Virus record (IMG/VR): IMGVR_UViG_3300023184_003457
Location: 1 to 25,143 of that record
Direction: 5' to 3' (one strand)
Source of the DNA: a virus
DNA: 25,143 nucleotides
In this document: positions 13-21,759 of the stretch, piece after piece
Layout: each line of letters starts with the position of its first letter
Numbering within the stretch: position 1 is the first letter of the stretch
Notes under the pieces: model-generated
Databases searched by the model: none
What the model was told of the DNA's origin: nothing
Seen by the model: the letters and a program-made list of their open reading frames with translations, nothing else
Made by a program: the position numbers and the translations under genes

Positions 13-2607
13 TTAAAACTTATATCTAACCGATAATGATACCGTTTGACCAAAAGTAATCTCTTGCCACCTATTATCTTCTGTGTCATATTTATGATTA
101 CCATTTAGATCTTGAAAGTATATAAGTTTTTGTGCGATTATATCTTTTATATTTAATTTTAAATCTAACTTGCCTATTGTTTTTGATATTTGAAAATCAA
201 TCACATTCCTTCCGTTTTCCCATACACTAGGTTCTTGTTGGTTACCTACAATATAAATTCTTGGACCAATAACATTATATGATAATGTAAGATTGAAATC
301 TTCTTTTTTATTTGTGTAAAATATACCTGAGTTAATAATGTATGGTGATTGTCCTTGAAGTGGTCTGTCTCCTCCCGATCCAATAAACTGATCCAAATTA
401 ACGGTTGATTTTATCAATGATAAATTACTGTAAAGAGTAATGTGATCCCATATTTTATGATCCTCAACTTTAGATAAAAATCCTAAATTAAATCTAAATT
501 CAAATTCACCACCAAAACTTTGTGCTCTTTGTGTGTTTGAAAAGTATAGTTCGGGAGCTCCTGATGTTCCGGTTCTGTTTATAGTCTCAATAGGATTATT
601 AAAGTTTTTATAAAATCCTGATAAAGTTATAATTTGTCCAACACCAGGATAAAACTCATATCTTAAATCACAATTTGTGATTTTGGTTCTTTTTAGATAT
701 GGATTACCCGATGTGATATTATCTAAAATAAAGTTGTAAAAGTTAAATGGTGCCAATTCTCTAAACTCAGGTCGTGATACCGTTTGACTAACACCACCCC
801 TTATTTTCATTTTATTATTTAAGTTATAGATGACATTAACTGAAGGTAATAAATCAACTACAGTCGTGTCTATTTTCTTGTCAAGGTTACTACCAAACTC
901 AATGTAGTTAAAGTTCTGTGTATAAGATTCGAGTCTTGCTCCCCCAGCAAATCTCCAATCACCAACTTTATAATCAACCATTGTATAGAAAGCATTTAAG
1001 AATGAATTAGCATTATAACTATCATCCACTTTTGTTGACTCATCTATTTTAAATCCACCTTGACCATTACTTAATAGACCCATATTGTCTACTGAAAATA
1101 TTTCATCAGCCGGCAATAAAAGTAAACTACTATTAAAAGTACTTCCGTTTGGTTTATATTGTGAGAACCCTAAATTTCTAGATGAAAAATCTTTTGATCT
1201 ATATTGATTCCATCCACCTATCTTAATTGAGTTCTTTTCTTTGACCGGTATTATTAAATCATATTTAGCACTTATAATCTTCTCATTTGACTTTGACCAA
1301 AACATATTACCAGCGGCAGTTGGTATTGTACCATTTTGTTGTATTACCGCAACATATTGTTCATTAGGGTCATCCTCATATAAAGAATACTTTCTATAAA
1401 CAATTCTTCTTAAATTTGGTATGTCTCTTTTAACATTACTATAACCTAAGTTCCAATTAAACTTATTTTGTTTTATAGTATGTGTACCAATAATTTGGTT
1501 AGTTAAAAAGTTATTTTGGGTATACCAAAAATTTGTTGACTTCTCCCATTGACGTGGATCACTATCTAATTCCCTAACACCATTTCTAATATTAACCTTA
1601 TCTTCTGAATTAACCGAGTATATGTTTTTAAATTTAATTACATTATCACCATTAAATTTATACGTTACATTAAACATACCACTATTCAACACACTTTGGG
1701 TGAATACTGAATCATTTAGTTCCATCTTCTTAACAACTCCATTTACCTGTTCCTCAAACTCTCTTCTTATAACATTATTATAACTTAAATTATTTTGATA
1801 ATTGTAAGTTAAAATATAACTTAAACTTTGTTTCTTTTTTAGTTTAATATTTCGACTTAAGGTATATTGAATTGATGAATTAGGTAATGATAATTTATTT
1901 TTAGTAGACCAAGAATAATCCATTGATTTTGCAAGTTCAGATCTATCTTGTTTAGTTAAACTTGTAAAATATATTGTTGTAGGTATATTAGGTAGATCTC
2001 TTGCTCCAACACCAAAACCTAAAAAATCAGTATTACTACCATCATAAGTTTTAAAGTTTTTGAATGTTGTAATTGTATTATATGACCCACCAATCTGTAT
2101 TGTTTGTAGATTATCACTTTTAGGTTCTGACGTATTAATATCAATTACTCCACCGGCAAACTCACCAGGTAAATCAGGACTTGCCGTTTTAATAACAGTT
2201 AAGTTATCAATCATGTTTGATGGAAATATATCAAATGAAAATGATCTCTTATCAGACTCAGAACTTGGTAGTGGTAAACCATTAAGTAATGCGAAGTTGT
2301 ACCTATCATTAAGTCCTCTTACAACAACGAACTTATTATCTACAACACTTATACCACTAACCCTCTTAAAAATATCAGAGACCTTAGAGTCTGGTGTTCT
2401 CTTAAAGGTCTCTGCGTTTATTCCGTCAACTGATGTAACACTATTTCTTTGTAGTCTTAAAAGTTCTGTTGTTGATTCTTTATTTGTTTTAAAGGTAACC
2501 GTAACCCCCTCAACATTTTTAATAGTATCTTTTTTAAAAGACGCATTAGATGGTTGAGATAATAATTGTATTGGTAATACCAATAAAAGTGTAAGAAATA
2601 ATTTCAT
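13..2607 (-). CDS. TonB-dependent outer-membrane receptor, lacking the usual N-terminal accessory domain
   Basis: A TonB-dependent receptor imports a ligand across the outer membrane using TonB energy. The 864-residue product has a signal peptide (about residues 1-18, ending LLSQ). A possible TonB-box-like stretch VEGVTVT lies near 32-38. The plug domain spans about 45-160, including VVVRGLNDRYN at 94-104, the segment PLPSSES and the GEFAGGVIDI strand near 148-157. A long barrel follows, rich in alternating aromatic and polar strands, and it ends in a terminal Phe (VRYKF), the usual outer-membrane insertion signal. Bacteroidetes members of this plug family usually carry a carboxypeptidase-regulatory-like domain before the plug; here the plug follows the signal peptide almost directly. 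It lies 5 bases after a T9SS cargo gene and is very likely co-transcribed with it. The ligand cannot be told from sequence. The family call is firm; its role in a phage is not known. Confidence 0.93.
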   Translation of the reverse strand: MKLFLTLLLVLPIQLLSQPSNASFKKDTIKNVEGVTVTFKTNKESTTELLRLQRNSVTSVDGINAETFKRTPDSKVSDIFKRVSGISVVDNKFVVVRGLNDRYNFALLNGLPLPSSESDKRSFSFDIFPSNMIDNLTVIKTASPDLPGEFAGGVIDINTSEPKSDNLQTIQIGGSYNTITTFKNFKTYDGSNTDFLGFGVGARDLPNIPTTIYFTSLTKQDRSELAKSMDYSWSTKNKLSLPNSSIQYTLSRNIKLKKKQSLSYILTYNYQNNLSYNNVIRREFEEQVNGVVKKMELNDSVFTQSVLNSGMFNVTYKFNGDNVIKFKNIYSVNSEDKVNIRNGVRELDSDPRQWEKSTNFWYTQNNFLTNQIIGTHTIKQNKFNWNLGYSNVKRDIPNLRRIVYRKYSLYEDDPNEQYVAVIQQNGTIPTAAGNMFWSKSNEKIISAKYDLIIPVKEKNSIKIGGWNQYRSKDFSSRNLGFSQYKPNGSTFNSSLLLLPADEIFSVDNMGLLSNGQGGFKIDESTKVDDSYNANSFLNAFYTMVDYKVGDWRFAGGARLESYTQNFNYIEFGSNLDKKIDTTVVDLLPSVNVIYNLNNKMKIRGGVSQTVSRPEFRELAPFNFYNFILDNITSGNPYLKRTKITNCDLRYEFYPGVGQIITLSGFYKNFNNPIETINRTGTSGAPELYFSNTQRAQSFGGEFEFRFNLGFLSKVEDHKIWDHITLYSNLSLIKSTVNLDQFIGSGGDRPLQGQSPYIINSGIFYTNKKEDFNLTLSYNVIGPRIYIVGNQQEPSVWENGRNVIDFQISKTIGKLDLKLNIKDIIAQKLIYFQDLNGNHKYDTEDNRWQEITFGQTVSLSVRYKF

Positions 2608-2612
2608 TTATA

Positions 2613-4175
2613 TTAGTTTTTAACTACTACTCTTTCTGTATGACCATTAACTTTAATGATATAAACACCATTTTCTAAATTTGATAAGTCAGTATTATTA
2701 TTTAAAACCATTTGACCTAAAGAATTGTATATTGTAAAATCTAAAGTTTGTTTTTCACTTATAATAGTTATAACACCATTTGTTGGATTAGGGTAAACTT
2801 TAAATGAAGTTCTATTAGTTTCACTAACACCATTAAATAAATCACCAAACTTAGGATTTGTAAAATCAGCACCTGTTGCAACAACTGATGTACTATCCAA
2901 TCTACAATCAGGTGCAACTCCACTTGGTACAAATATGTTTACCCAATTGATTTGGTTGATTGTAGTTAATGAATCGTTATTATGATTTGAAAAATATGTT
3001 GATAAAAACCCTGGTGTTGTTGTTAAACAATTTGTTGGGATTTCACAAAGAACATTGTGATCAAAAACTAACGTATCACCTAACACGTTATCTTCAACTG
3101 ATGTACCTTCCAAAGATAATCCTTTTTCCCAACCAACAACAAGGGTATTAAATACAGATTCTGCAGAGTTTCTTCTAATTCTAAAAGCTTTCTCAAACTT
3201 CTCACCAATAGGTAAAGTGACATTACCATCACCTTTAGCACCAACAATAGTGAAGTTAGAGAATACTGCTGCGGTTTGTGGTAAAGATGCACTACCTTGT
3301 GCGTCATTATCCGATTCAAAACAATTTGAGTCACCTGCGGCGTCTGACAAATTTTCATTTCTAATCGCTAACCCAAACTGCAAGTTACCTCTGTATCCAA
3401 AGTCTGTATCAAAGTCATCATCTGTTGATGAGTATGATATTAAATGTTTACAATTTACTGTTCCACCAAACCATTCAAATGAATCATCACCTGAATAACT
3501 TACCTGAATGTAATCAACTTGTGTTCCTGAACCAACTGAACCAAAAGTAATTCCATTAATTTCTTTATTAGGTGCTAATGGAATACCAGCAAATTCAATT
3601 CTTACATATTTTAATGAACCTGAATTATCCATATCATCAGTACCACCATGTTCAGTGTCTGATGAAGGAACAATACCTTCAATGTTAACAACACCACCAG
3701 GTTGGTTATTTAATGCTTTACCTAAAAGAATAACTCCACCCCAATCACCTTCAGAACGATTACCAACAGAATTGTTTGATGTGAAAACAATTGGTAATTG
3801 TTGTGTTCCTTCTGCAATTAATTTACAACCTTTTGTGATTGTTAAAGTTCCTTGTGTTCCGTAGTCACCTCTGATGATTGTACCTGGTTGGATTGTTAGT
3901 GTTGCTCCGTTTTTAACATAAATTTTGTTTTCTAACAAGATAACACCTGACCAAGTTGTGTTTGTTGTGATGTCCGTATTAACGGTTGTTTGTGTTGCCG
4001 GGTAATTTGTATTTTCTGGATCAAAATTAGACCACCCATAAGTCCAATCTGTTTGTGGAGTATAATCCGTTACAGGAAATGCCCCTTTATAATCAGTTAC
4101 AGTCCAAAACTGACTTTGTGCGTTTGTTAAAAAAACAAACATTAACATTACGATACTTGCGTAAATCTTTTTCAT
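2613..4175 (-). CDS. Secreted beta-helix-like protein with T9SS type A C-terminal sorting domain
   Basis: This 520-residue protein has a signal peptide (about 1-20, cleaved near TNAQ/S). Its middle region (about 75-440) is rich in short G/N/T-turned beta strands such as YVKNGATLTIQPGTII (86-101), which suggests a right-handed parallel beta-helix. It also has an acidic stretch (STDDDFDTDFGYRG) that could bind metal. The C-terminus (458-520) is a clear T9SS type A sorting domain: KVYPNPTNG, then FTIYNSLGQMV, then LENGVYIIKV. Such domains direct export and surface attachment or release by the Bacteroidetes type IX system. The gene is first in a two-gene unit with the TonB receptor downstream, so the product may capture or bind the ligand that the receptor imports. 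Bacteroidetes homologues are generally left as sorting-domain proteins without a defined activity. No catalytic motif is recognised. Confidence 0.9.
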   Translation of the reverse strand: MKKIYASIVMLMFVFLTNAQSQFWTVTDYKGAFPVTDYTPQTDWTYGWSNFDPENTNYPATQTTVNTDITTNTTWSGVILLENKIYVKNGATLTIQPGTIIRGDYGTQGTLTITKGCKLIAEGTQQLPIVFTSNNSVGNRSEGDWGGVILLGKALNNQPGGVVNIEGIVPSSDTEHGGTDDMDNSGSLKYVRIEFAGIPLAPNKEINGITFGSVGSGTQVDYIQVSYSGDDSFEWFGGTVNCKHLISYSSTDDDFDTDFGYRGNLQFGLAIRNENLSDAAGDSNCFESDNDAQGSASLPQTAAVFSNFTIVGAKGDGNVTLPIGEKFEKAFRIRRNSAESVFNTLVVGWEKGLSLEGTSVEDNVLGDTLVFDHNVLCEIPTNCLTTTPGFLSTYFSNHNNDSLTTINQINWVNIFVPSGVAPDCRLDSTSVVATGADFTNPKFGDLFNGVSETNRTSFKVYPNPTNGVITIISEKQTLDFTIYNSLGQMVLNNNTDLSNLENGVYIIKVNGHTERVVVKN

Positions 4176-4205
4176 ACTTCTTTTATTTTTATAATTTTAT
4201 TACAA

Positions 4206-4238
4206 CAATAGATAGTATGACTAATAGGTTAAATCAAA
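4206..4238 (-). promoter_or_regulatory. Candidate promoter for the T9SS cargo/TonB receptor unit
   Basis: On the minus strand TTTG (4235-4238) is followed after 20 bases by TATCTATTG (4206-4214). This resembles the Bacteroidetes -33 TTTG / -7 TAnnTTTG arrangement with an imperfect -7 box. It lies between a terminator and the gene start and would give a leader of about 25 bases. Position and spacing support it; the sequence match is only partial. Confidence 0.4.
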
Positions 4239-4290
4239 TCAACTATAACAATTTAGCGCAATCCTAATAGCCTTAACTTTTGGTTAACAT

Positions 4291-4316
4291 AAAAACCCCC
4301 ACATTTCTGTGAGGGT
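4291..4316 (-). terminator. Rho-independent terminator
   Basis: Read on the minus strand, ACCCTCAC pairs with GTGGGGGT across a 6-base loop (stem arms at 4309-4316 and 4295-4302, one G-T pair), followed by a run of T (4291-4295). It ends the transcription unit whose last gene stops at 4342 and insulates the receptor unit downstream. Confidence 0.85.
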
Positions 4317-4341
4317 TCCATATAATTTGTCAAGTTTGTTT

Positions 4342-4626
4342 TTACCATTTGTCAACATCAGTTAGATCTAATTCAATGTCAGCCAATTCACTATAGACCG
4401 TAACAATTTTACCAATTCCATTACTTGAGAATCTATACTCATAATCACCATATTGACCATATATCGCTTTTATGTGTGATTGCCACTCCTCCAATTTTTT
4501 AACCTGATCCTCATCAAGAGTAAAAGTCTTAACTTTTTTTGGTGGGGGAGGTGGCATTTCATGGTCAGTTATTTCACCATTTATTCTCAAATACATTTTT
4601 TTAATGTTTTTACTTAAATCATCCAT
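4342..4626 (-). CDS. Hypothetical phage protein with a polyproline segment
   Basis: This 94-residue, soluble, mixed-charge protein is not recognised. Visible features are a short N-terminal helix, a run of five prolines at about residues 25-29 (EMPPPPPKK), a helical stretch KVKTFTLDEDQVKKLEEWQSHIKAIYG, and a C-terminal part with an aromatic and acidic pattern (DYEYRF, then ELDLTDVDKW). It is the last gene before a strong terminator and follows the upstream gene by 17 bases, so it belongs to the same unit as the genes up to about 6047. There is no signal peptide or membrane segment. The polyproline stretch may be a linker or a protein-binding site. No function is offered. Confidence 0.7.
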   Translation of the reverse strand: MDDLSKNIKKMYLRINGEITDHEMPPPPPKKVKTFTLDEDQVKKLEEWQSHIKAIYGQYGDYEYRFSSNGIGKIVTVYSELADIELDLTDVDKW

Positions 4627-6078: not shown

Positions 6079-6801
6079 CTATTCATACTTCCAAATAAAT
6101 CCACCCGCACTTTTCGTTCTATTTGATAAATTAGATTTAATATCTCCCTTTATATTATTATTCCTCAACCAATTATAAGCATCGGTCATACAATTATATT
6201 TTTTTAAAAAATTACCACCTAAATCAAATTGTAAAATGCATTTTCCATTTCTTTTTTTTGCTTCCGCTCGTTTTTTTATTAACTCATCACTTTGTTTTAC
6301 ACCCTTTAAAGGACTCACATATCCTTCAGGGATATTTTTAGGTATTCCCTTTCTTAATCTATTTCTTTCCGATAAATCAGGTCTTGGTATGCCTATTTTA
6401 GATAATGCGGTTTTTGGGTTTGGTTTTCCTTTATTATGGGCAGGACGACCTTTGTATTTTTTTGAGATTAACTTTGAGAACTCATTTCGGATCCTTTGGT
6501 ATTGTCTTGAGTTTATTTTGTATCTCAAACCATTTCTATCTTGATTACACATACCCCATAACGCAAATTTCAATTTGTGTTTATCAGGATGTATTTCACA
6601 AAGTAATAAATGAGAGATAAAATGTTCTTTTGCAGTTAATAATACGATGTTTGGGTGTGTTTTCCACTCCACAGTTTTTCCCTCGCCACCCAAACATTTT
6701 GGAATTATGTGGTGTGATTCGTAATATATCTCACAATTCTTTATTCTATTTTCACTCTTCGCCCTCAGAATTATCTGGTTGTATATTTTTTTGTAGTCCA
6801 T
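6079..6801 (-). CDS. Free-standing HNH homing endonuclease with NUMOD3 and NUMOD1 modules
   Basis: This 240-residue protein has an HNH nuclease domain at about 28-66 (ESHHIIPKCLGG, then NIVLLTAKEHFISH), where the two His of SHH and the later N and H form the metal site. It is followed by two NUMOD3-type DNA-binding repeats, near 118-131 (GRPAHNKGKPNPK) and 158-172 (PEGYVSPLKGVKQSD). A NUMOD1-type helix-turn-helix module lies at about 187-238 (ILQFDLGGNFLKKYNC, then the SAGGFIWKY end). This layout is typical of mobile homing endonucleases in phage genomes, which cut a related genome lacking the gene and are copied in during repair. The start overlaps a small basic ORF (6752-6922) by 50 bases. 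The protein looks complete, with all domains intact. Confidence 0.92.
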   Translation of the reverse strand: MDYKKIYNQIILRAKSENRIKNCEIYYESHHIIPKCLGGEGKTVEWKTHPNIVLLTAKEHFISHLLLCEIHPDKHKLKFALWGMCNQDRNGLRYKINSRQYQRIRNEFSKLISKKYKGRPAHNKGKPNPKTALSKIGIPRPDLSERNRLRKGIPKNIPEGYVSPLKGVKQSDELIKKRAEAKKRNGKCILQFDLGGNFLKKYNCMTDAYNWLRNNNIKGDIKSNLSNRTKSAGGFIWKYE

Positions 6802-10540: not shown

Positions 10541-12457
10541 TTAATAAACCGTTACACTTCCACCACCTGATGTTTGATTGTTTGTATCAACTGGAGTTAC
10601 TGGGGTTCCACCTGTAAGTGATAACATAACTTGATTACGTATTTCTTGATTCCACTTACAATTAACCGTCATACTTAATCCTTTGGTATTGTTTAAATAT
10701 TGTTTAATTTCTCTTAAAGTATTACAAGTTTCTTGGTTACGTATTTTTCTTTGTTTTTGTTTTTCAGGATCTATATTACCATTATATGATTTTGTACTTG
10801 ATTTTGTACCTGAATTATTTCTTCTACTTTTATTATCATTATCATTATTATTTCTATCTTTTTTAATAACCTCTTGAGTACCTTCTTTTGCATCTTCACC
10901 AAATAAAACTCTTTGTGTTGATCCTCCTGTAGTTCCACTAGCTAAAAGGGTTGCTTCAATAACCACAGTATAATCAGTTACTGAAATTATTTTAAAATAT
11001 CCATCATTACCAGTTAATTGGGAATCTTGAGTTTCAGGAGTAACTTTAATCCAATCACCAGCAACATAATTATGTTTTTGACCTGAATAAACTTTCTTTG
11101 CATTAGTATCCTTTAATATTTTAATTAAATCAAAAGTTGCTTGGTCCACAACACCTGGCGTTGAGTTAGGTAATTTATCTTTATATTTTTCTTGGAATTC
11201 TTTTACCGCAATTTCAGTATCAGTACCAAATCCTCCATCAACTTTTATTCCTAATTTTTGTTGTATTAATTTAACATCAGCTCCTTTAGATTTTTTTGCT
11301 ACCGATAATTCAAAAACCGTATTTCCAGTTGTTGTTCCAGTTGGTGCTTCGGTTAATAAATTATATCTAAAACCTTTATGTTTATAACTTTCATTTGTAA
11401 ATTCGTTTTCAAGAGCAGGATCTGTGGTTAGACCAATTTTTCCTTTATTATCTATAACCGCATCATAATCCCAAGCAGTAGTTGATAGTGAGTATTGTAA
11501 AAATTTATTTGGACAATTAAAATCTAAAACAATACCTGAATCAGGTCTTATTATTACACCTTGATCAGTAGGATCTTCAACACCTCTTTTTTGGACCCCA
11601 AAAATAAGATTTTTAATAGTTTGATTGTTAACGTCTAATTTATAACCTACACCTTTATCTATTTTTATTGGAGTTTTTATTAATGCGGGATGTTCACTTA
11701 TACATCCATATCCAGCAAATGATACTTGATTAGCGGAATTACCTCCACCACCAGGAGTGTATGCGGGCCCATCACATTTAAATCCTGATTTTTTATATTC
11801 ATCAACAGTATTATAACCACATTTTTTTGCGGTTACTAATAACTCCTCTTGTTTTTTTAATTTATTTGAGGCGTTAATTTTTTCTTCTTTACTATTTATA
11901 ATCTTTTGGTTTTTTGTTATATTAAGTGATTTATTAATTATATCAACCAACGGAGATAAAACATATGTCAGAGTATCCTCATTTTGATCATCAGATTCTC
12001 TCCCAAAAGGATAACTATTAACTGATCTTAACCCACCTGGATAATCAGTTGTTAGTTCAACACCAGTATGCTCTTTAAATATTTTTTTTATCTCACAAAA
12101 ATTAGGGAAATTATTCATTTGAGTTATCTGTCTTTTAATCTTGTCTTCATCAACACTCACATAACCTTTATTACTACCCAACAATTCAAAAAGTTTATCA
12201 GCAGTTGTACTTATTAAACTATCGTTAAATGTCGATTTACCCATTTTTGCTACATTACATAAGTTACCAATATTTTTTAATTTTTCAACATAAGAACCAC
12301 CACCATTTTTAATACTTTTAACGTATTCAATATTTTTATCCCCAACACAAAAACCACCATCAGGGCAATTTTTTATTTCTTCATTTAATATACCATAACT
12401 TTCATTTAGACTTTGTCTAACAATTCTACTTAATAAACTATCTGTAATTTTTTTCAT
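10541..12457 (-). CDS. Large peptidoglycan-binding-domain protein with N-terminal tag, putative virion or lysis protein
   Basis: This 638-residue protein has a PG_binding_1 domain at about 386-447 (KGADVKLIQQKLGIKVDGGFG, split here as VKLIQQKLG and VDGGFGTDTEIAVKEF). This fold is used by cell-wall enzymes and phage virion proteins to bind murein. A beta-rich section follows (about 455-520), then a low-complexity N/S/K linker (533-560) and a helical end. The N-terminal stretch MKKITDSLLSRIVRQSLNES resembles the tags of the 12461 and 14416 genes and contains L-N-E sites (residues 17-19 and 24-26). The region 30-230 has several cysteines and coiled-coil potential. There is no visible catalytic domain or signal peptide. 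It follows the small PG-binding gene by 3 bases. A virion-associated cell-wall-binding role is inferred. Confidence 0.75.
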   Translation of the reverse strand: MKKITDSLLSRIVRQSLNESYGILNEEIKNCPDGGFCVGDKNIEYVKSIKNGGGSYVEKLKNIGNLCNVAKMGKSTFNDSLISTTADKLFELLGSNKGYVSVDEDKIKRQITQMNNFPNFCEIKKIFKEHTGVELTTDYPGGLRSVNSYPFGRESDDQNEDTLTYVLSPLVDIINKSLNITKNQKIINSKEEKINASNKLKKQEELLVTAKKCGYNTVDEYKKSGFKCDGPAYTPGGGGNSANQVSFAGYGCISEHPALIKTPIKIDKGVGYKLDVNNQTIKNLIFGVQKRGVEDPTDQGVIIRPDSGIVLDFNCPNKFLQYSLSTTAWDYDAVIDNKGKIGLTTDPALENEFTNESYKHKGFRYNLLTEAPTGTTTGNTVFELSVAKKSKGADVKLIQQKLGIKVDGGFGTDTEIAVKEFQEKYKDKLPNSTPGVVDQATFDLIKILKDTNAKKVYSGQKHNYVAGDWIKVTPETQDSQLTGNDGYFKIISVTDYTVVIEATLLASGTTGGSTQRVLFGEDAKEGTQEVIKKDRNNNDNDNKSRRNNSGTKSSTKSYNGNIDPEKQKQRKIRNQETCNTLREIKQYLNNTKGLSMTVNCKWNQEIRNQVMLSLTGGTPVTPVDTNNQTSGGGSVTVY

Positions 12458-12460
12458 ATC

Positions 12461-12673
12461 TTATCCTATTAAAGCGTTTTTTATGGCCTTAAGGGTTAAA
12501 GGTCCTATTTTACCGTCAGGATTTAATCCTGAATTTTTGTTTGAATTTAACCAATTTTGTATATCCACAGTGGAGTAATCTTGAGTTTGTTCAACCAAAA
12601 CATTAGTTTTTACACCATGTTTGGTTAATATGTCTCTGATCTCACTTTCCGTTAATTTTATTTTAGGTAACAT
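12461..12673 (-). CDS. Small peptidoglycan-binding protein with N-terminal tag
   Basis: This 70-residue protein consists of a short N-terminal segment, MLPKIKLTESEIRDILTKHG with VLVEQ after it, and a compact PG_binding_1-type half domain (VDIQNWLNSNKNSGLNPDGK, then IGPLTLKAIKNAL). The G-x-I-G-P-L-T-x-x-A-I-K pattern is characteristic of the family. The tag contains L-T-E and L-V-E sequences of the (L/I)-x-E type cut by T4-like prohead proteases. It lies 3 bases before the larger PG-binding gene, so both products are probably made together. A TATATTTA box at 12705-12712 could be its promoter, with a leader of about 27 bases. A role in cell-wall contact is inferred. Confidence 0.75.
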   Translation of the reverse strand: MLPKIKLTESEIRDILTKHGVKTNVLVEQTQDYSTVDIQNWLNSNKNSGLNPDGKIGPLTLKAIKNALIG

Positions 12674-14415: not shown

Positions 14416-15972
14416 TTATCTATTATTTGGTCTAAATCTCATTTGATTTGATTTTACCGCATTCTTTGAGAATCTTAACCCTTGTCCTTGTTTTCTAGTG
14501 TTTCCTAATGACCTTGCGTGTTCCGTCATTTCAACCTCAAAATTTGGTTCATATCTATTACCACCATCTTCATTAATTTTTTCTTTCAAAACTCTAACAA
14601 ATTCATTCTGTACCATCTTAGTAAATTTAATATAAGGAGAATCATCTGACTCTTCATTATATTTGTATTTACCTACAGGTGGTCTTTTAGATCTACCTAA
14701 ATATGATAACCCAGAAATATTTGTAATACATTTGTGTCCACCACTATTAGATTGAATTAAATCCCAAGCGTTTACACTAATAGAATCTAACATTCTCATT
14801 TCTTTATCTGTTAAACTACTAAATGGTTTTCTCATTGCCGTTTCAACATCATCAAGAATATCTTCCCCATCGGCCATTTGTTTAAATTCTTTACCATATA
14901 AGGCATTAAAATCTCTGAATGTAAAACCAACTGATTGTTCACCAAAACCTTTTCCTGATTCTGATATCCATTTTATTGTAGATAAAGGAATATCCTTATC
15001 TTGTAATTGTGATTTCCACTTGTTTAAGACATCATCTTTGATCTCACCTAAGTTTACACCTTTAAGTGCTCTTTCTTTCTTAAATGGATTACAAGACGCT
15101 TGTACCAACCCTAACGGCCAAGCAATTACCAAGAAGTCAGCATCAGGATTATTTCTGAATGGTGTGTATCTATCATATGATCCTGGTTTCATCATACTAC
15201 CTCCACCATACTGAACTATAATTTTATCATCAACTTTAACATTCTTGTGAGTTTTCATTGTTTGAACATAACTCTCTTTGTTTTTTTCTAAATCTCCAAC
15301 ATCAGCATAACTTTTTTCTTTGATCTGAGATCTGATGTTTAACAATATACTTAATAACGATGGATTTGCATTCATTACAATATTTTCCAAGAACCCTGGT
15401 TTGTTTTTGAATGCCAATAATAATTTATTAGCAACCATACCCATTATCATTTTGTTTTTTTGTAGTGATTGATCTTTATCTACCTTAAACAAATAGTTCA
15501 TTACTTGTTCAGGACTAATATCATGTTGAGCATAATTTGCTGAGTCCACCGTAGATATCAAAGTGATATCGTCAGATGGGAAAATATCTCTTGGAGATAC
15601 GGTTTGGGATATTGTCTCAACGTTAGATCTTGAAGATTTAAAATTAGTTGAGGTACCTTGTTCAACCCCCGCTTGTGTGTCGTGGTGGTCAGTATGTATA
15701 ATGAACATTGGTTTACCGTGAGCAAAGTCAACTAACACCGGCATAACATCACCCTCAGCATCCAACTTTTTAATTGCGAATTCTTTATCACCATATTGAA
15801 TGATCTCGGCATCTACTACCTTTATTCCGTTTTGTTCTAAGTAACTTTTCATACCTAAAGCAGTGGTTACACCATCTAAATCTTGGTGAAAATATATCTT
15901 AGCCTCAGGGTATCTTCTAGATAATTCCCTGATGTTTCTTATTCCCGATTCCGTTATTAACTTTTTCTTCAT
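14416..15972 (-). CDS. DHH/DHHA1-type phosphoesterase (RecJ/NrnA-like) with N-terminal tag
   Basis: This 518-residue protein has the DHH catalytic motifs in order: FHQDLDG (28-34), LVDFAHG (80-86), HTDHHD (93-98) and TVDSANY (141-147). Near residue 411 is GGHK, the usual DHHA1 GGH element. The family includes RecJ exonuclease, nano-RNases and cyclic dinucleotide phosphodiesterases, which use two Mn ions to hydrolyse phosphodiester bonds. It is longer than NrnA-type enzymes, with extra regions between 150 and 400. The N-terminus MKKKLITESGIRNIRELSRR resembles the tags on the 10541 and 12461 proteins. The C-terminal tail is basic (KQGQGLRFSKN, then RFRPNNR), consistent with nucleic acid binding. 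Substrate unknown; a RecJ-like or oligonucleotide role is inferred. Confidence 0.85.
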   Translation of the reverse strand: MKKKLITESGIRNIRELSRRYPEAKIYFHQDLDGVTTALGMKSYLEQNGIKVVDAEIIQYGDKEFAIKKLDAEGDVMPVLVDFAHGKPMFIIHTDHHDTQAGVEQGTSTNFKSSRSNVETISQTVSPRDIFPSDDITLISTVDSANYAQHDISPEQVMNYLFKVDKDQSLQKNKMIMGMVANKLLLAFKNKPGFLENIVMNANPSLLSILLNIRSQIKEKSYADVGDLEKNKESYVQTMKTHKNVKVDDKIIVQYGGGSMMKPGSYDRYTPFRNNPDADFLVIAWPLGLVQASCNPFKKERALKGVNLGEIKDDVLNKWKSQLQDKDIPLSTIKWISESGKGFGEQSVGFTFRDFNALYGKEFKQMADGEDILDDVETAMRKPFSSLTDKEMRMLDSISVNAWDLIQSNSGGHKCITNISGLSYLGRSKRPPVGKYKYNEESDDSPYIKFTKMVQNEFVRVLKEKINEDGGNRYEPNFEVEMTEHARSLGNTRKQGQGLRFSKNAVKSNQMRFRPNNR

Positions 15973-16124: not shown

Positions 16125-16962
16125 GTTCTTTTATTTGTTCTAAAGCTTTGAAATAATTAATTCTTGTTTCGGCAATTTGTTTGTAATTTTCACTTAACTC
16201 AATACCTAACCATCTGCGACCCAAAATTTCCGCGGCGACTAAAGTAGTTCCGCTACCAGCGAACGGATCCAAAATCACATCGTTCTTGTAGGATAGTATC
16301 TTAATAGCCTTGGTCGGTATGTCCATTGAGAAAGTTGCCTTGGTGAGTGATTTAGTATCTGCAAAGTAATTCCACTGACCAAATACAAGTTCCATAAACT
16401 CTTTCTTATCTTTTTCTTCATATACAATTTTTTTCTTTAATGTCCCGTCTTCCTGTTCAATTTCAGTAGGTGTTCCTTTCCACTGGGGTTCTCCTTTAAC
16501 CTTTTTAATGTGGTGTTTTTTGTATGCCAATATTACACACTCCTTTGGATTATAAATATACGGACTTGATGGACTCATCCAAGAACCCCATGCCGTTGTC
16601 TTAGATCTATGTGGTGATTGTTCTTCAAGATCAACGATACCAAAGAATTTAAATCCAACCTGTTTCATTACCTGATAAAATTCTGAAACAAAAAATACTC
16701 GTCCACCCCTACTTTGTACATTTACTTCTAATGGAATATTAATAGCAACTCTTCCATCATCTTTAAGTAATCGGTAGGTTTCCATTAACCACTCTTTTGT
16801 CCAACCCCAATAATCATCCATAGATAAAGTATCAATGTGTATGTCGTAACTAATCCCAACATTATATGGTGGTGACGTTACAATTAAATCTACCGAACTT
16901 TCAGATAACGTTTTCATTACCTCAATACAATCTCCGTTTATTATTTTTCCTGTTTCTATCAT
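16111..16962 (-). CDS. DNA methyltransferase, N4-cytosine/N6-adenine type (beta class order)
   Basis: This 283-residue enzyme has catalytic motif IV TSPPYN at 29-34 and the SAM-binding motif I DPFAGSGT at 232-239. Motif IV precedes motif I, which is the beta-class arrangement. The GRRWLGIELS segment (248-257) is the usual strand-2 acidic position. It would methylate adenine N6 or cytosine N4 at a specific site, and the TSPPY form is common in cytosine-N4 enzymes. No restriction endonuclease is next to it, so it probably acts as a solitary methyltransferase protecting phage DNA or mimicking host marks. Its start overlaps the stop of the homing endonuclease by 4 bases (ATGA). Confidence 0.93.
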   Translation of the reverse strand: MIETGKIINGDCIEVMKTLSESSVDLIVTSPPYNVGISYDIHIDTLSMDDYWGWTKEWLMETYRLLKDDGRVAINIPLEVNVQSRGGRVFFVSEFYQVMKQVGFKFFGIVDLEEQSPHRSKTTAWGSWMSPSSPYIYNPKECVILAYKKHHIKKVKGEPQWKGTPTEIEQEDGTLKKKIVYEEKDKKEFMELVFGQWNYFADTKSLTKATFSMDIPTKAIKILSYKNDVILDPFAGSGTTLVAAEILGRRWLGIELSENYKQIAETRINYFKALEQIKELPFN

Positions 16963-17771
16963 ATTTTATCAAATTTTATTTTTTTTCTGTCTAAACAGAA
17001 ATTGTTACCCAAATAAAAATAGTTTTTAATTTTGATTAAATCAATTTTATTTGATATTTGTAATCTGTGAAATGTTTTATAATTGTATTTACTCACTGAA
17101 TTTAAACCAAAATTTAATAGTTCATTTTTAATTCTATTTATAAAATTATCAGATCCTGAGGTAAAAGTTACAGAATAATACGTACCGCTTTTAACTTTTT
17201 TCTGAGTAATACATCCATCCCCATCAAAATAACCTAATATAAATGAAGGTATTAATTCATTTTTTATTTTTGGAAATTCAATATTATTTGTTTTATTCTG
17301 CACGCACCCCAATTTAATCAAATCTTTAACCATTTTTTTTGAGTTTACTAACAACACTTTACCTGTGGATTGGTATTCTTTACCATTACTACCTTTAAAT
17401 TTTGATGTCTCAGTTCTTAATTCTTTTTGATTACTTTCTATGTGACTAATAAAGGACATTAAATGATTTTCATCTAGCCCTGATAGTTTGATTTTTAACA
17501 CATACCCACTCTTTATATCCCTCACACACCCGTCAGCAAATAAAAAACCTAACCAATATGCTTTTAGTTTAGAGTCTATTTTTTCAAAAAAATTTTCATT
17601 ATAAAAAAACTTTCTACGACCTTTAATTTCAATTCCATTATCTTTTAATGTGTTAGAAATCTTTCTGGTGTTTATATTATACTTATTTGATAATTTAGGT
17701 ATTGACTCACCATTTTGGTAATCAGAAATTAAATTATTTATTACACAATGATCTAAAATTATTTTATTCAT
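16959..17771 (-). CDS. LAGLIDADG homing endonuclease
   Basis: This 270-residue protein has two LAGLIDADG-type motifs, AYWLGFLFADGCV at 71-83 and FILGYFDGDGCI at 177-188, whose acidic residues form the two catalytic sites. A helix-turn-helix-like N-terminal part (DYQNGESIPKLSNKYNINTR, 17-36) probably aids DNA recognition. Two-motif proteins act as monomers on a long asymmetric site. The gene is free-standing, directly upstream of and translationally coupled to a DNA methyltransferase, so its target may lie in or near that gene in related phages. A 6-base-pair hairpin lies 4 bases before the ATG. The protein appears intact. There is no sign of an intron or intein boundary in the methyltransferase. 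Confidence 0.9.
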   Translation of the reverse strand: MNKIILDHCVINNLISDYQNGESIPKLSNKYNINTRKISNTLKDNGIEIKGRRKFFYNENFFEKIDSKLKAYWLGFLFADGCVRDIKSGYVLKIKLSGLDENHLMSFISHIESNQKELRTETSKFKGSNGKEYQSTGKVLLVNSKKMVKDLIKLGCVQNKTNNIEFPKIKNELIPSFILGYFDGDGCITQKKVKSGTYYSVTFTSGSDNFINRIKNELLNFGLNSVSKYNYKTFHRLQISNKIDLIKIKNYFYLGNNFCLDRKKIKFDKI

Positions 17772-18029: not shown

Positions 18030-18350
18030 TTAAATTACACTTGTTATTGCTTGAGCTAGTTTATATCCTGTGAAGGCACCTATTGCGGCCGAACCCGGTA
18101 AAACAATAAACTTACCCAACATAGTTTCATATTTCTTCCTATTAACAATATAAGAAATTAATATGTAATAGGCAATGTAGTTGATTAAAACCAAAAAGTC
18201 CAACTCTTTTGTAACAAAAACCACAATTGAATTTCCAAGAAATCCCCACATAAAATTAATAAGTGTTTCACGGATTAACTCACCGGGAGTTGTGATTGCA
18301 TCTAATATCCCAATCTCTTTATTTAGTCCCTTTTTATTTTTAATTTCCAT
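18030..18350 (-). CDS. Small membrane protein
   Basis: This 106-residue protein has hydrophobic segments at about residues 33-47 (NFMWGFLGNSIVVFV), 52-67 (FLVLINYIAYYILISYI) and 81-104 (FIVLPGSAAIGAFTGYKLAQAITSVI), the last rich in small residues (GSAAIGAFTG). This suggests two or three membrane passes with a charged N-terminus in the cytoplasm. Its start overlaps the end of the dTDP-glucose dehydratase gene by 11 bases. The 'P-G-S-A-A-I-G-A-F-T-G' element suggests tight helix packing. Possible roles include glycan transfer, exclusion of other phages or lysis; the sequence does not choose between them. Confidence 0.7.
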   Translation of the reverse strand: MEIKNKKGLNKEIGILDAITTPGELIRETLINFMWGFLGNSIVVFVTKELDFLVLINYIAYYILISYIVNRKKYETMLGKFIVLPGSAAIGAFTGYKLAQAITSVI

Positions 18351-19269
18351 ATTGTCTATCTAAGTAATCAAATAAATTTAAAAACTTAGGAATCTCACCA
18401 TTTTTAGTTATATAATATTCTCTTAGTTTTGTACAATTAAGTCCATATTTCCTATCATGACCTAATCTGTCTTCAACGTGTTTAATATCAACCTCTTTGT
18501 TTAAAATATAAGAAATATTTTTAATAATGTCCAAATTTGTCACTCTGAAAGTTGTTCCAATATTATAAGTGGTATTTACAATCTCATCGTCAAACATTAA
18601 ATCACAAATAACTTTTACATTATCATAAACATACATCCATTCTCTAACTTGTTCCCCATCACCATAAACTGGAATTGGTTTACCTTCATTGATTGATCTA
18701 GCAATTGTAGGTAAAAACTTTTCCTCAAATTGGTGTTCACCAAAATTATTACAAGTTCTTGTGATAATATATGGTAACCCATAAGTTCTATTGGCAGATA
18801 AAACTAACATATCAGATGCCGCTTTAGTTGCGGAATAATATGAGCTAGACTTTAAACTATCATCTTCAGTTGCCGTATGATTAATTGAAAAATGTTCATC
18901 CATATCCCCATAAACCTCATCGGTTGAAATGTGTATGAATTTTTTAATATTTTTATTATTTCTTGATATCTCTAATAAATTAAATGTTCCTTCAACATTA
19001 GTTCTAACAAATGGTAGCCCATTCTTAATTGAATTGTCGACGTGAGACTCAGCTGCAAAGTGAACCATGTAATCAAAATCACCAAGTTCATCTGCCGTTA
19101 CATCACAAATGTCTTTTTGTAATAAAGAAACATTGTGTTTAATATTCATTATACGACCAGCGTATGTTAGTTTATCAACACAAAGAACATCACATTCAAA
19201 GTTATCTAATAGGTGATTTATAAATGCGGATCCTATAAACCCCGCTCCTCCTGTTACTACTATTTTCAT
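18340..19269 (-). CDS. rmlB: dTDP-glucose 4,6-dehydratase-like nucleotide-sugar dehydratase
   Basis: This 309-residue SDR enzyme has the NAD-binding GGAGFIG at 7-13, the catalytic TDEVYGD at 116-122 (Asp-Glu pair typical of RmlB-type dehydratases) and YSATK at 145-149 (Tyr and Lys of the SDR active site). It should turn dTDP-glucose, or a related sugar, into the 4-keto-6-deoxy sugar, the branch point for deoxy and amino sugars. It is somewhat shorter than usual bacterial RmlB (about 350 residues), mostly at the C-terminal side. In the same block are an aminotransferase-like, an acetyltransferase, a methyltransferase and a dioxygenase gene, consistent with a modified-sugar pathway. No RmlA-type pyrophosphorylase is in the window, so the substrate probably comes from the host. 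Confidence 0.93.
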   Translation of the reverse strand: MKIVVTGGAGFIGSAFINHLLDNFECDVLCVDKLTYAGRIMNIKHNVSLLQKDICDVTADELGDFDYMVHFAAESHVDNSIKNGLPFVRTNVEGTFNLLEISRNNKNIKKFIHISTDEVYGDMDEHFSINHTATEDDSLKSSSYYSATKAASDMLVLSANRTYGLPYIITRTCNNFGEHQFEEKFLPTIARSINEGKPIPVYGDGEQVREWMYVYDNVKVICDLMFDDEIVNTTYNIGTTFRVTNLDIIKNISYILNKEVDIKHVEDRLGHDRKYGLNCTKLREYYITKNGEIPKFLNLFDYLDRQYGN

Positions 19270-19280
19270 TTTATTTTGTT

Positions 19281-19637
19281 TTAAAGTTTAATTATTTCTC
19301 TTACAAGGAACTGGATCAGATAAGCATACACCTCTTCTGTCTCAAACCCTGGTTGTACTCCTATTTTATTAAGAACAGCATATGCTGCATGATATGCTTC
19401 ATGAGCTACCAAACCAAGTGTATCAGGTTCCTTTTTAATTTTACCTCTAAACCTAACTATTATAAAACCATCACTATGTGTCACAGTTCTAGCATCTGAC
19501 TTCCAATCATCAAATGCTAGATCAAATTGTTCTCTTGTGAACCTGTGACAAAGACAATCATATAGTTGGTCATCAGATTGATTAATAGATACTACTACAT
19601 CAGTAGAAAACACATCAACAGGTATTATTTTAAACAT
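19281..19637 (-). CDS. HExxH motif protein of a small Bacteroidetes phage family
   Basis: The start at ATG 19637, one base after the upstream stop, is preferred; a longer reading from 19673 lies in the upstream gene. The 118-residue protein has VAHEAYHAAYAVL (HEAYH at 79-83) and TEEVYAYLIQFLV (Glu101/Glu102 possible third ligand). This gives the zinc-binding pattern of a minimal metallopeptidase. Similar short HEAYH proteins are common in Bacteroidetes phages and prophages, from general knowledge, and their substrate is unknown. It is the last of four small genes joined by overlaps (20314-19281), which move together as a typical phage set. Confidence 0.75.
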   Translation of the reverse strand: MFKIIPVDVFSTDVVVSINQSDDQLYDCLCHRFTREQFDLAFDDWKSDARTVTHSDGFIIVRFRGKIKKEPDTLGLVAHEAYHAAYAVLNKIGVQPGFETEEVYAYLIQFLVREIIKL

Positions 19638-19638
19638 T

Positions 19639-19845
19639 TTATTCTGATTTAAAGGTTTCATTGTAGTATTCATCTGCTGTGCAATATGTAGTTATTTTAC
19701 CACGTGCATCTCCAAAGTTTACTGCCTCAATTATTTGATCCTTCTCCATTTCTTTGGCTTGTTCAACAATTTCTTTTGGTATATAATTTGGAGCTATGTT
19801 TGATTGAACTACATATACTAACCATTCTACTGCTGTTTGTTTCAT
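19639..19845 (-). CDS. Small phage protein, paralogue of the next gene upstream
   Basis: This 68-residue protein begins MKQTAVEWLVYVVQ, has the helix EIVEQAKEMEKDQIIEAVNF, and ends with an EYYNETFKSE motif. It shares the start (TAVEWLV), the AKEMEK helix and the YYxETFKSE end with the gene at 19842-20051, so the two are tandem duplicates. Proteins with TAVEWL near the start and EQAKxMEKxQI in the middle are frequent in Bacteroidetes phages and prophages, and their function is unknown. The start overlaps the upstream stop (ATGA), which is typical of coupled translation. The two copies differ clearly in the central loop, so they may have different partners. Confidence 0.75.
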   Translation of the reverse strand: MKQTAVEWLVYVVQSNIAPNYIPKEIVEQAKEMEKDQIIEAVNFGDARGKITTYCTADEYYNETFKSE

Positions 19846-20051
19846 TGTTCTGATTTAAAGGTTTCTTTATAGTATTGTTCACCTGTCTTAAAATCATCGC
19901 ATTGTGTGCATATTTTTGATGAAACAAAATCATAACAATATGTTATCTGCTCTTTCTCCATTTCTTTGGCTTTTTCAATATGATAATATTGTTCTGCTGT
20001 TAATACTTTTGGCATTAGTTGTTCAACTAACCATTCTACTGCTGTTTTCAT
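19842..20051 (-). CDS. Small phage protein, paralogue of the next gene downstream
   Basis: The 69-residue protein is read from ATG 20051 (MKTAVEWLVEQLMPKVLTAE), which forms an ATGA overlap with the end of the DUF3310 gene; a longer reading from 20090 would overlap it by 43 bases and is less likely. It has the same plan as its paralogue: TAVEWLV start, KAKEMEKEQI helix and YYKETFKSEQ end. Its central part carries a C-x-x-C motif (KICTQCDDF) that could bind metal and is absent from the paralogue. The family is common in Bacteroidetes phages and of unknown role. Confidence 0.75.
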   Translation of the reverse strand: MKTAVEWLVEQLMPKVLTAEQYYHIEKAKEMEKEQITYCYDFVSSKICTQCDDFKTGEQYYKETFKSEQ

Positions 20052-20314
20052 TTTTTCTCTAGTGTTTCTATATGATGTTGCAAGTACCATAATGCTTTCT
20101 TAAGGTCCTGTAACTCTTTATCTTTTTTTCCAGCTCTTGAAATATACTTTACCGTATTTCCTAAACTAAATCCTAAATCCCAAGCATCAATAACTTTTAT
20201 TGCCTCATAAGGATTATCCTCTCCTCCGTAATGGTTAGGATGATTAACTTGTTCTACTTTTATTGGAGGACACTCACAAAATACGTTAGCTCCACATACA
20301 CATTCTTTTTCCAT
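20048..20314 (-). CDS. DUF3310 protein (phage nucleotide-kinase-like)
   Basis: This 88-residue protein has the DUF3310 pattern VNHPNHYGG, then YEAIKVIDAW, then LGNTVKYISRAGKK, then LKKALWYLQHHIE. In phages the family is often labelled a nucleotide-kinase-like protein (after T7 1.7), although the catalytic evidence is thin across the family. A short N-terminal segment with CVCGANVFCECPP has four cysteines and may bind zinc. It follows the methyltransferase gene by 4 bases and is coupled (ATGA) to the next gene. This is one of the clearest phage markers in the window. Confidence 0.9.
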   Translation of the reverse strand: MEKECVCGANVFCECPPIKVEQVNHPNHYGGEDNPYEAIKVIDAWDLGFSLGNTVKYISRAGKKDKELQDLKKALWYLQHHIETLEKK

Positions 20315-20318
20315 TTTT

Positions 20319-20936
20319 TTATTTTTTTCTAATTATAAAACAATTACCATCTAAAAAAGATTCTGGTCTAGCCTTAAAGGAATTGGGTAATGTCCCTATT
20401 ATTTCATAACCATCAAGTGTAGATATAATATGATCCACCATAGGTCTTACTTCAGGACTAAATTCATAATCATTATAATCGTCAAAAACAATATAACCAC
20501 CATTTTTAACCATTGGTGAGTATAACTCAAAATCATTCTTCACTCCATTTGATGAGTGATCACCATCTATAAATAAAACATCAATATCATCAATAAATGT
20601 TTTAAGTTTTTCTAACGTTTCTATTTTTTGAGAATCTCCTTGAATATATTCGTAATTATTATTAAAAATATTAAATTTTTCTATATTTTTAATTGGGACT
20701 TCAGGTGATATAGGGGTTCCTAAATCTATACTAAAAACATTAGTATTTTTTCTTTGACATATTAACGATGCCGATCCACCAGCATAACACCCAATCTCAA
20801 CATAATTAAGATGGTAATCATCAGGATACGTTTTAATTATGTCATATAAAATATGATAATGATGGTGAAACGTTTTTCCATACATTTCATTTGATATCCT
20901 TCTTGTAATTTCTAAAGATTCTTCCGTGTGAGTCAT
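20319..20936 (-). CDS. Class I SAM-dependent methyltransferase (Methyltransf_24/TylF-like)
   Basis: This 205-residue enzyme has the SAM motif EIGCYAGGS at 47-55 and an acidic residue at D71 (FSIDLG). The segment LFIDGDHSSNGVKNDF (121-136) matches the Asp/His metal-binding block of O-methyltransferases of the TylF and cephalosporin-hydroxylase-like group, and FDDY (151-154) closes strand 5. The conserved D-x-D-H points to a divalent-metal site. Its place next to PhyH, acetyltransferase and aminotransferase genes points to methylation of a sugar in glycan modification. The preceding gap (20937-20973) holds no clear terminator, so it is probably in the same unit. The acceptor is unknown. Confidence 0.9.
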   Translation of the reverse strand: MTHTEESLEITRRISNEMYGKTFHHHYHILYDIIKTYPDDYHLNYVEIGCYAGGSASLICQRKNTNVFSIDLGTPISPEVPIKNIEKFNIFNNNYEYIQGDSQKIETLEKLKTFIDDIDVLFIDGDHSSNGVKNDFELYSPMVKNGGYIVFDDYNDYEFSPEVRPMVDHIISTLDGYEIIGTLPNSFKARPESFLDGNCFIIRKK

Positions 20937-20973
20937 ATTAATTTATTTTTTTTTAATTCAAAGTTGTTTATTT

Positions 20974-21759
20974 TTAATCTTGGTTTTTTTTATAAAATCT
21001 TTTATTTTCAGGTTGATACCATTCATCCAAAGATGCGGGTACCCTTGAGTGATATCCTAATAATTGTTGTAATTCAAAACTAAACTCATCAATCCTGTCG
21101 TAACCAATTGCTCTTGGGTAATCTAATAATTGTTTCATAAACGATTTACTTACGGTTATTGGGATTGCTCTTCTATGGTCTTGTGTTATATTTGGTGCCG
21201 ATGAATGCCAAACATTAGCATTAAAAACTATCATGTCACCCTTTTTACCAACGGCTTGTATAGCGTTTTGAAAAAATTCTTCATCACTTGGTTTTTGTTC
21301 ATCTAAATGAGAATAAGGTAATAGATATGTTGCCCCATTTTCAATTGTAAAATCATCCACCATTAATAAACAATTTAACATAATTGGGAAATCACCAGAA
21401 TAAAATCTTAAATCTCTGTGAACAATTGCCGAGAAATTTGGTTGATTTGGTAGATTATCTAATCCACTAAATGAATTAATAATACACTTACCATTAAAAA
21501 AAGATTCCGAAAGGAACTCAAAGAATTTTTTATTTTGGATATCTTCCAAAAAATTAATGAATATTGGATTACTTAATAACGCATGAAGCGCAACTCCATT
21601 AGTTTGAATATCATTATGGTTATTTAATTGAGTTTTTCTATGCTCAATAAATGCTTTGTCCAAAGCATCCCTTAACAAATCTAACCAATTTTCATCAACT
21701 AAATTTCGGATAATTGTATACCCTTGTTCTTTTAACTCTATAATATTTTCTTTTTTCAT
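20974..21759 (-). CDS. PhyH-family Fe(II)/2-oxoglutarate dioxygenase
   Basis: This 261-residue oxygenase has the iron ligands H114-x-D116 (VHRDLRFY) and H185 (NVWHSSAPN). R196/R197 (DHRRAI), about 10 residues further on, would bind 2-oxoglutarate. The double-stranded beta-helix core around 110-200 is typical (NCLLMVDDFTIENGATYLLP, GDMIVFNA). PhyH enzymes hydroxylate lipids, sugars or small molecules, and in viral glycan clusters they are thought to act on sugar or amino groups. Its stop and start codons overlap those of the next and previous genes, fixing it in the decoration operon. The substrate cannot be read from the sequence. Confidence 0.9.
   Translation of the reverse strand: MKKENIIELKEQGYTIIRNLVDENWLDLLRDALDKAFIEHRKTQLNNHNDIQTNGVALHALLSNPIFINFLEDIQNKKFFEFLSESFFNGKCIINSFSGLDNLPNQPNFSAIVHRDLRFYSGDFPIMLNCLLMVDDFTIENGATYLLPYSHLDEQKPSDEEFFQNAIQAVGKKGDMIVFNANVWHSSAPNITQDHRRAIPITVSKSFMKQLLDYPRAIGYDRIDEFSFELQQLLGYHSRVPASLDEWYQPENKRFYKKNQD

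Follow-up and report, generated by a model that had tools for sequence, protein, structure and literature searches.

A probable phosphorus-acquisition gene pair of large T4-like phages, encoding a beta-helix protein with a type IX sorting domain and a TonB-dependent receptor

The IMG/VR virus record IMGVR_UViG_3300023184_003457 (the complete record, exactly 25143 bases, referred to here as the window) carries close to its position 1 two adjacent genes on the minus strand, which are the subject of this analysis. The first (2613-4175) encodes a protein of 520 amino acids, the helix protein, with a signal-peptide-like start, a predicted right-handed parallel beta-helix (residues ~57-410) and a type A sorting domain of the type IX secretion system (T9SS; residues 460-518). 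The second (13-2607) encodes a TonB-dependent receptor (TBDR) of 864 amino acids with a signal-peptide-like start, a plug and a beta-barrel, and without a CarboxypepD_reg domain. A gene for such a secreted protein, 5 bases before a complete TBDR gene, had been described in an earlier model-made reading of the same DNA (the original prediction). Both open reading frames (ORFs) were found at these coordinates with a gap of 5 bases between them, and the plug (PF07715) and barrel (PF00593) of the receptor each scored over the Pfam cut-off.

The sorting domain and the beta-helix claimed for the helix protein were borne out by domain matches in Pfam and NCBIfam and by a structure model. Residues 460-518 matched Por_Secre_tail (PF18962; 45.1 bits, cut-off 27) and the protein also matched TIGR04183 of NCBIfam (39.8 bits, cut-off 23), the T9SS domain being the sole domain over cut-off in either database. 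In the model this C-terminal domain superposes on those of RgpB (7pq4) and NucA (8glk). The N-terminus resembles a Sec signal peptide when the translation is inspected by eye, and the model shows a helix at residues 2-18. Use of the host T9SS, as had been proposed, is probable. The AlphaFold2 model, built from 74 sequences including bacterial relatives, had a mean predicted local distance difference test (pLDDT) score of 90.3, an earlier model from 17 phage-contig sequences having been poor (pLDDT 53.8). In the model, the predicted beta-helix aligned to several beta-helix structures with Z ~22 (VIA-align). The top rows, at most 1 Z unit apart, were a tailspike, a Geobacillus-virus protein, alginate epimerases and NosD, and since many beta-helix rows are tied near Z 22 the fold names no enzyme family or substrate. 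Foldseek returned no PDB match for the model and one viral match at E 0.001. A PDB sequence search gave two T9SS-domain matches and two weak ones (E 0.36 and 0.61) for the helix protein and no chain at E 0.1 for the receptor, and neither protein was assigned to a family by PHROGs. Fourteen acidic positions do not vary across the 74 aligned helix sequences. Among the acidic residues, D230, D231 and E234 repeat as D252, D253 and D256, a spacing of 22 residues that matches one rung of the helix and suggests a stacked acidic face, perhaps binding a metal. Membership in the SusCD systems was considered and rejected, as the TBDR partner is a beta-helix with no SusD match in Pfam or NCBIfam. The CarboxypepD_reg domain is absent from the receptors of the window and of contigs L002 and L020; it is present in those of L030, L034, L040 and L058 and in 3 of 3 bacterial relatives tested.

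The window record stops 12 bases past the TBDR stop codon, as it might if the pair were host DNA at a prophage edge or part of a chimeric assembly, an alternative that the original prediction had itself raised. The DNA beyond position 1 is consequently not visible from the window; related contigs show it. In a scan of viral contigs, relatives of the helix protein were found encoded on 43 (many of them near-copies) and relatives of the receptor on 13. Of the 43, 21 have an adjoining TBDR gene, 16 continue for more than 1 kb after the helix gene without one, and six (L017, L032, L037, L041, L042, L044) are cut at or soon after the helix gene. On L002, L004 and L007, several genes to the left of the pair are the same as in the window, and the right side continues with genes of viral contigs. 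Among ten flank proteins scanned from L045 (the same contig as L002) and L049, seven matched a PHROG, all seven in the right flank, and three (one left, two right) did not. The seventh ORF past the TBDR gene on L049 (9612-10250) matches a PHROG ferredoxin (phrog_3704, auxiliary category). On L030 a capsid gene is the fourth ORF past the TBDR gene. L011 shares the left flank of the window and has other genes, and no TBDR gene, after the helix gene. No TBDR was found on 13 of 13 helix-only contigs searched over their whole length, three of which span 274-291 kb, the contigs being incomplete.

One contig of 290 kb shares 22 of the 33 window genes at E 1e-4, 17 of them collinear in one stretch and a few of them weak or short matches. 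It carries matches to the T4-type capsid protein Gp23, to tail sheath and to PhoH; its helix gene, near 166 kb, sits elsewhere than in the window layout. In the wider set, Gp23 was matched in 5 of 19 contigs searched, PhoH in 7 of 20 records and the tail-sheath domain in 4 of 22, two of these over cut-off. None of these three hallmarks was matched on L040 (176 kb), where the neighbours of the pair are of phage families (exonuclease, ATPase, methyltransferase). No Gp23 gene was found among the window proteins scanned, no search with the Gp23 model having been made on the window. In the INPHARED database no close relative of the window was found at the DNA level, and matches to the pair were limited to the megaphage LR745206 and small faecal contigs, the latter left out of both trees described below. 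The window is best understood as part of the genome of a large T4-like phage. On other contigs the pair lies between phage-family genes on both sides, and past the point that corresponds to position 1 these continue with phage-family genes. In addition, the phage copies form clades of their own and have a gene order opposite to that of 68 of 80 bacterial loci (see below). We therefore rejected an assembly join or prophage edge, which related contigs and the genes shared with the 290-kb contig contradict and which we regard as barely credible; the claimed phage context of the pair stands.

Between the pair and the upstream phage gene lies a hairpin with a T tail (4291-4319, minus strand) that resembles an intrinsic terminator. 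The insulating terminator that had been claimed is borne out by its folding energy (-17.1 kcal/mol within 4288-4322, z -5.0, 0 of 200 shuffles as low), a simple terminator scan of 4100-4500 having listed none. The claimed promoter-like element held in part. Sigma-70-like matches occurred only at the level of chance (2 found, 2.5 expected); what recurs in phage and bacterial relatives is an array of TTAAC-like half-sites. This putative Pho-box array (4252-4287, minus strand) comprises TTAAC (4287-4283), TTAAG (4276-4272), TTAGG (4267-4263) and CTAAA (4256-4252), at offsets 0, 11, 20 and 31. Downstream of it, TATCTATTG (4206-4214, minus strand) may be a -7 promoter element, and this element or a close variant precedes the helix gene in all 15 phage promoters compared.

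PhoB operators have a direct-repeat geometry of 11 bp. Thirteen of the 15 phage promoters show four half-sites of the TTAAC/TTAAG form, some imperfect, at offsets 0, 11, 20 and 31; on the 290-kb contig the offsets are 0, 11, 19 and 30 by eye, and the L030-L035 lineage and L040 have a single pair of half-sites. Half-site columns are conserved at 6.8 of 8, compared with 5.05 between half-sites. TTAA pairs 11 bp apart numbered 78 against 5.2 after shuffling in 54 non-redundant bacterial TBDR promoters, and 13 against 1.1 in 14 phage helix promoters (the non-redundant ones among 42), with 0 of 200 shuffles reaching the observed number in either set. A strict form of the pattern precedes the helix gene in 13 of 17 phage contigs, some of them near relatives of one another; of 13 listings elsewhere in 527 kb of strands, 8 were the same site on the other strand, which leaves 5. 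A loose form was present in 14 of the 17 phage contigs, in 42 of 54 bacterial TBDR promoters and in 21 of 63 bacterial TBDR-helix gaps. Upstream of pstS (12 regions, including two pairs from the same genomes), the 11-bp spacing was seen 6 times, compared with a mean of 0.9 for other spacings. As far as these comparisons of sequence go, a putative promoter array is common to phage helix genes, the bacterial pair and some pst operons.

Many Bacteroidota carry members of the helix family: a single genome collection contains at least 537 confirmed loci, and counts out of 80 bacterial loci refer to the best 80 of these. In quick trees without bootstrap, supports being Shimodaira-Hasegawa-like approximate likelihood ratio test (SH-aLRT) values, the 21 phage rows of the helix tree (20 IMG/VR contigs and the window; 84 rows in total) formed one clade (98) that joins 14 bacterial rows with a support of 82; of these rows, 12 bear a Flavobacteriales label. 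The ten phage rows of the TBDR tree (nine and the window; 73 rows) likewise formed one clade (99), grouped with 17 bacterial rows. In neither tree did LR745206, a megaphage of 635 kb, group with the phage clade; it sat on a long branch of its own. Some titles of metagenome-assembled genomes are at odds with their place in the tree (Chitinophaga, Glaciecola), and sequences, not names, were used as evidence; from some titles (lake, pond) we infer that the bacterial relatives are aquatic. As placed by these trees, the phage rows tested share one origin, with one megaphage apart. The ratio of nonsynonymous to synonymous substitution rates (dN/dS) between the window and relatives was 0.12-0.23 for the helix gene (6 pairs) and 0.08-0.19 for the TBDR gene (4 pairs), values that are rough since dS exceeds 1 in several window pairs; for the close pair L002-L006 it was 0.06 and 0.05. 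These ratios indicate purifying selection on both genes. Passenger cargo, host genes that were captured but do nothing for the phage, could account for the absence of the TBDR from related contigs and for the different place of the helix gene on the 290-kb contig. Such cargo would not be expected to show the low dN/dS of the window genes (0.08-0.23, with the same limit on dS), nor to keep its promoter array while the spacers diverge, and a neutral passenger, rejected on the ground of purifying selection, is very improbable.

The bacterial relatives connect the pair with phosphate. A TBDR gene lies within five genes of the helix gene in 72 of the 80 bacterial loci, upstream of it in 68 and in the opposite order in 2; the phage order, helix before TBDR, is the reverse of that in the 68. 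A cluster of PhoB-like regulators is found within five genes in 43 of the 80, and in 25 a PhoR-like kinase is present too. In loci L059-L079 the corresponding numbers are 17 of 21 and 15 of 21. The term PhoB-like is the proper one, as the regulator and kinase scores lie below equivalog cut-offs. Locus L102 carries a run of genes for PhoB-like, PhoR-like, TBDR, helix, Porin_O_P, PstS, PstS, PstC, PstA, PstB and PhoU, in which Porin_O_P (the phosphate-selective porin family PF07396) and the pst/PhoU members tested score over cut-off. In the genus of this genome, a helix homologue occurs in 59 of 101 genomes at E 1e-40, and in three genomes (L177, L178, L182) PhoR-PhoB genes adjoin the TBDR-helix genes, the helix homologues there being lipoprotein-like by eye.

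Surface remodelling offers another account of the pair, in which it would mask or replace surface structures, block superinfection or absorb tail spikes. TBDRs serve many phages as receptors, and the beta-helix fold is similar to that of phage tailspikes, as it is to that of polysaccharide-acting enzymes. We nevertheless consider this account unlikely, since the nearest relatives in bacteria are often located in loci of the phoBR type and share the promoter array, since the helix protein has a mean column identity of 76% over 17 phage sequences, unlike a protein in an arms race, and since the 13 helix-only contigs searched whole, incomplete as they are, showed no TBDR.

A published locus of similar anatomy is PUSIV of Flavobacterium johnsoniae, which, according to the available text of its description, reads in locus-tag order phoR, phoB, a TBDR gene (Fjoh_0545) and the gene of a pectin-lyase-fold lipoprotein, FII (Fjoh_0546) (PMC8115612). 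Fjoh_0545 and Fjoh_0546 are described there as strongly induced by phosphate (Pi) depletion, reported as Pi depletion only; the phosphorus-responsive loci are repressed under N and Fe limitation, and organic phosphorus is suggested as the target (PMC8115612). Loss of the surface protein Fjoh_0546 leaves spreading normal, as far as the text available of a second study goes (PMC7807042). PUSIV and the phage pair are alike in locus anatomy and fold, the comparison being one of these and not of an alignment: a TBDR is set beside a secreted pectin-lyase-fold protein, and the PhoR-PhoB genes beside TBDR-helix genes recur in L177, L178 and L182. They differ in that the phage helix protein has a T9SS sorting domain where the PUSIV protein has a lipoprotein anchor, and in the phage gene order. 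A further difference lies in the regulatory and transport genes nearby: among 73 phage-side records (the window, the phage loci and pieces of the 290-kb contig), the window's own contig being a fragment, no match to PhoB, PhoR, Pst, PhoU or porin was found at E 1e-4, so that regulation would have to come from the host. Phage genes under host PhoBR control have a precedent in the accessible part of a study of cyanophages, which gives the cyanobacterial Pho consensus as PyTTAAPyPyT/A (PMC10976474). ElpS of Caulobacter crescentus is, in the portion of its description at hand, likewise a surface protein of phosphate starvation, and differs as a released lipoprotein (PMC2996285); it was compared with the window protein by description, and its published identity to F. 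johnsoniae FI-FIII is 31-36% at a coverage of 50-54% (PMC8115612).

Taken together, these observations lead us to propose that the pair is a phosphorus-acquisition module that uses the T9SS, TonB and probably PhoBR of the host, and that a large T4-like phage lineage took it from Flavobacteriales-type bacteria as an auxiliary module; we put the probability of this at roughly two in three. The module would be the Bacteroidota counterpart of cyanophage pstS. Like the pair, pstS is described, in what is accessible of the source, as a host-derived phosphorus-uptake gene of T4-like phages with a putative Pho box (PMC10976474), and the helix-only phages are comparable to phages with pstS. It differs from the present case, which concerns TonB-dependent import at the outer membrane and a T9SS-type surface protein in phages of Bacteroidota and is known from sequence alone. 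Among the benefits that the original prediction had listed, phosphate uptake is supported; iron uptake, a surface altered against competitors and a receptor for progeny all have less support here.

TBDR cargo consists mostly of iron chelates, vitamins and glycans, and the pair might accordingly import another nutrient, such as an iron chelate or a glycan, and not phosphorus. The fold is common to glycan-acting enzymes, the F. johnsoniae relatives were modelled on a polygalacturonase by the authors of that work, as far as its available text tells (PMC8115612), and the TBDRs of the megaphages LR745206 and Mar_Mega_1 were annotated as SusC, with carbohydrate uptake suggested (PMC9723777). Set against this are the partner, which is no SusD by Pfam or NCBIfam, the published relative that is induced by Pi depletion (PMC8115612), and the Pho-type neighbours and promoter arrays; import of another nutrient is in our estimate improbable, if not strikingly so.

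If the pair does serve phosphorus acquisition, host PhoB would activate the phage operon during infection when phosphate is short. The helix protein would cross the inner membrane via Sec and the outer membrane via the host T9SS, to be held at the surface. The receptor would insert in the outer membrane, where host TonB would power import of a phosphorus-bearing ligand that the acidic face of the helix protein may bind or process. In this way, phosphorus would continue to flow in during the shut-off of host genes and the replication of a phage genome hundreds of kilobases long. By analogy with some cyanophages, which carry pstS and depend on the host for the remaining Pst parts, helix-only phages may lend their helix protein to the host's own receptor. 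Putting these steps together, we suggest tentatively that two host systems might be hijacked at once, T9SS for surface display and PhoBR for timing, and that the outcome is an importer of phosphorus powered by TonB. In it, an acidic beta-helix exported by the T9SS would stand in for SusD as lid or substrate-capturing partner, and helix-only phages would plug this part into a receptor of the host.

Several observations weigh against the phosphorus interpretation. At the promoters, 4 of 17 phage promoters lack the strict box. The loose box is absent from 12 of the 54 promoters of bacterial TBDRs and from 42 of the 63 gaps between TBDR and helix genes, and 4 of the 12 pstS regions showed boxes upstream of that gene. 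A three-half-site pattern (at most one mismatch) is unique on the window, yet 41 of 100 shuffles also match, so that the pattern does not exceed chance when the window is taken by itself. A matrix scan puts the window array second and the array of the 290-kb contig outside its top six. A triple-repeat pattern is not specific, with 21 matches in six genomes compared with 22 for a reversed control; the 21 include two TBDR promoters of the family (G021, G025) and two listings of the porin-pst promoter in the genome of L102. The half-sites are short and A+T-rich, the phage promoters are related by descent, and Pho boxes predicted in phage genomes are unreliable according to the text at hand of PMC10976474. 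At the loci, a PhoB-like cluster was not seen within five genes in 37 of the 80 and a PstS cluster was seen in only 3. Both regulators tested fit the PhoB model best, and both kinases fit PnpS best and PhoR second, in each case below the equivalog cut-offs. Among 20 regions from the genus of L102, a TBDR was detected in 8 and PhoB with PhoR in 3; ten of these regions, with more distant helix homologues (L163-L172), had neither TBDR nor PhoB/PhoR at the threshold used. Of 80 genomes from the order of L061, 1 had a PstS match over cut-off, as did 10 of 60 from the family of L102.

Two elements of this proposal are already in print, separately: phage T9SS cargo, in the part of PMC7468147 that is available, and a megaphage TBDR (PMC9723777). 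The cryophages of the former code for T9SS type A proteins that would likewise use the host system; their cargo differs (an endoglucanase, a GH39 protein and a PA14 protein), and the term TonB is absent from the main text as available (PMC7468147). The pair of LR745206 (L058, 8407-12244) likewise has its helix gene before its TBDR gene; the helix protein there differs in its length of 431 amino acids, its lipoprotein-like appearance by eye, the lack of a T9SS domain and its long separate branch. The main text of PMC9723777 names neither a helix partner nor phosphate for that TBDR. In the open-licence literature, with subscription papers and supplements outside the scope, we found no description of phages with a helix-TBDR pair, or of a connection between this pair and phosphate. 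If the proposal is true, phage phosphorus genes reach beyond cyanophage pstS to the Bacteroidota outer membrane, and large Bacteroidota phages can tune nutrient uptake at the host surface to phosphorus supply. Plant-associated members of this phylum are reported to be without PstSABC (PMC8115612), and PstS was over cut-off in 1 of the 80 genomes sampled from one order. It also points to a function for a widespread and uncharacterised Bacteroidota surface protein, and gives concrete predictions, namely PhoB binding and induction by low phosphate.

Other genes were noticed on these phages. Several phage lineages have a YceI-family-like gene (by eye; cluster c12) downstream of the pair or of the lone helix gene (L020, 13758-14309; L026, 9776-10318). 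A window gene that by eye looks like glutamine synthetase (23068-24186, 372 amino acids) has a match of 72% identity on the 290-kb contig and is possibly a nitrogen counterpart to the phosphorus pair. A sugar-modification-like cluster (18340-23062) contains a nucleotide-sugar epimerase (phrog_540), a PhyH dioxygenase (PF05721) and, by eye, acyltransferase- and aminotransferase-like genes. Two homing-endonuclease-like genes (6079-6801, phrog_655; 16959-17771, phrog_4645) have no match at E 1e-4 on the 290-kb contig. Finally, unrelated-looking proteins encoded at 10541-12457, 12461-12673 and 14416-15972 of the window, and by several ORFs of L020 and L026, have in common an N-terminal leader like MKxLIRxILxEE or MNLQENIQRIKEMMGI. 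Internal proteins of T4 carry capsid-targeting leaders, which this leader resembles, and it may mark packaged proteins.

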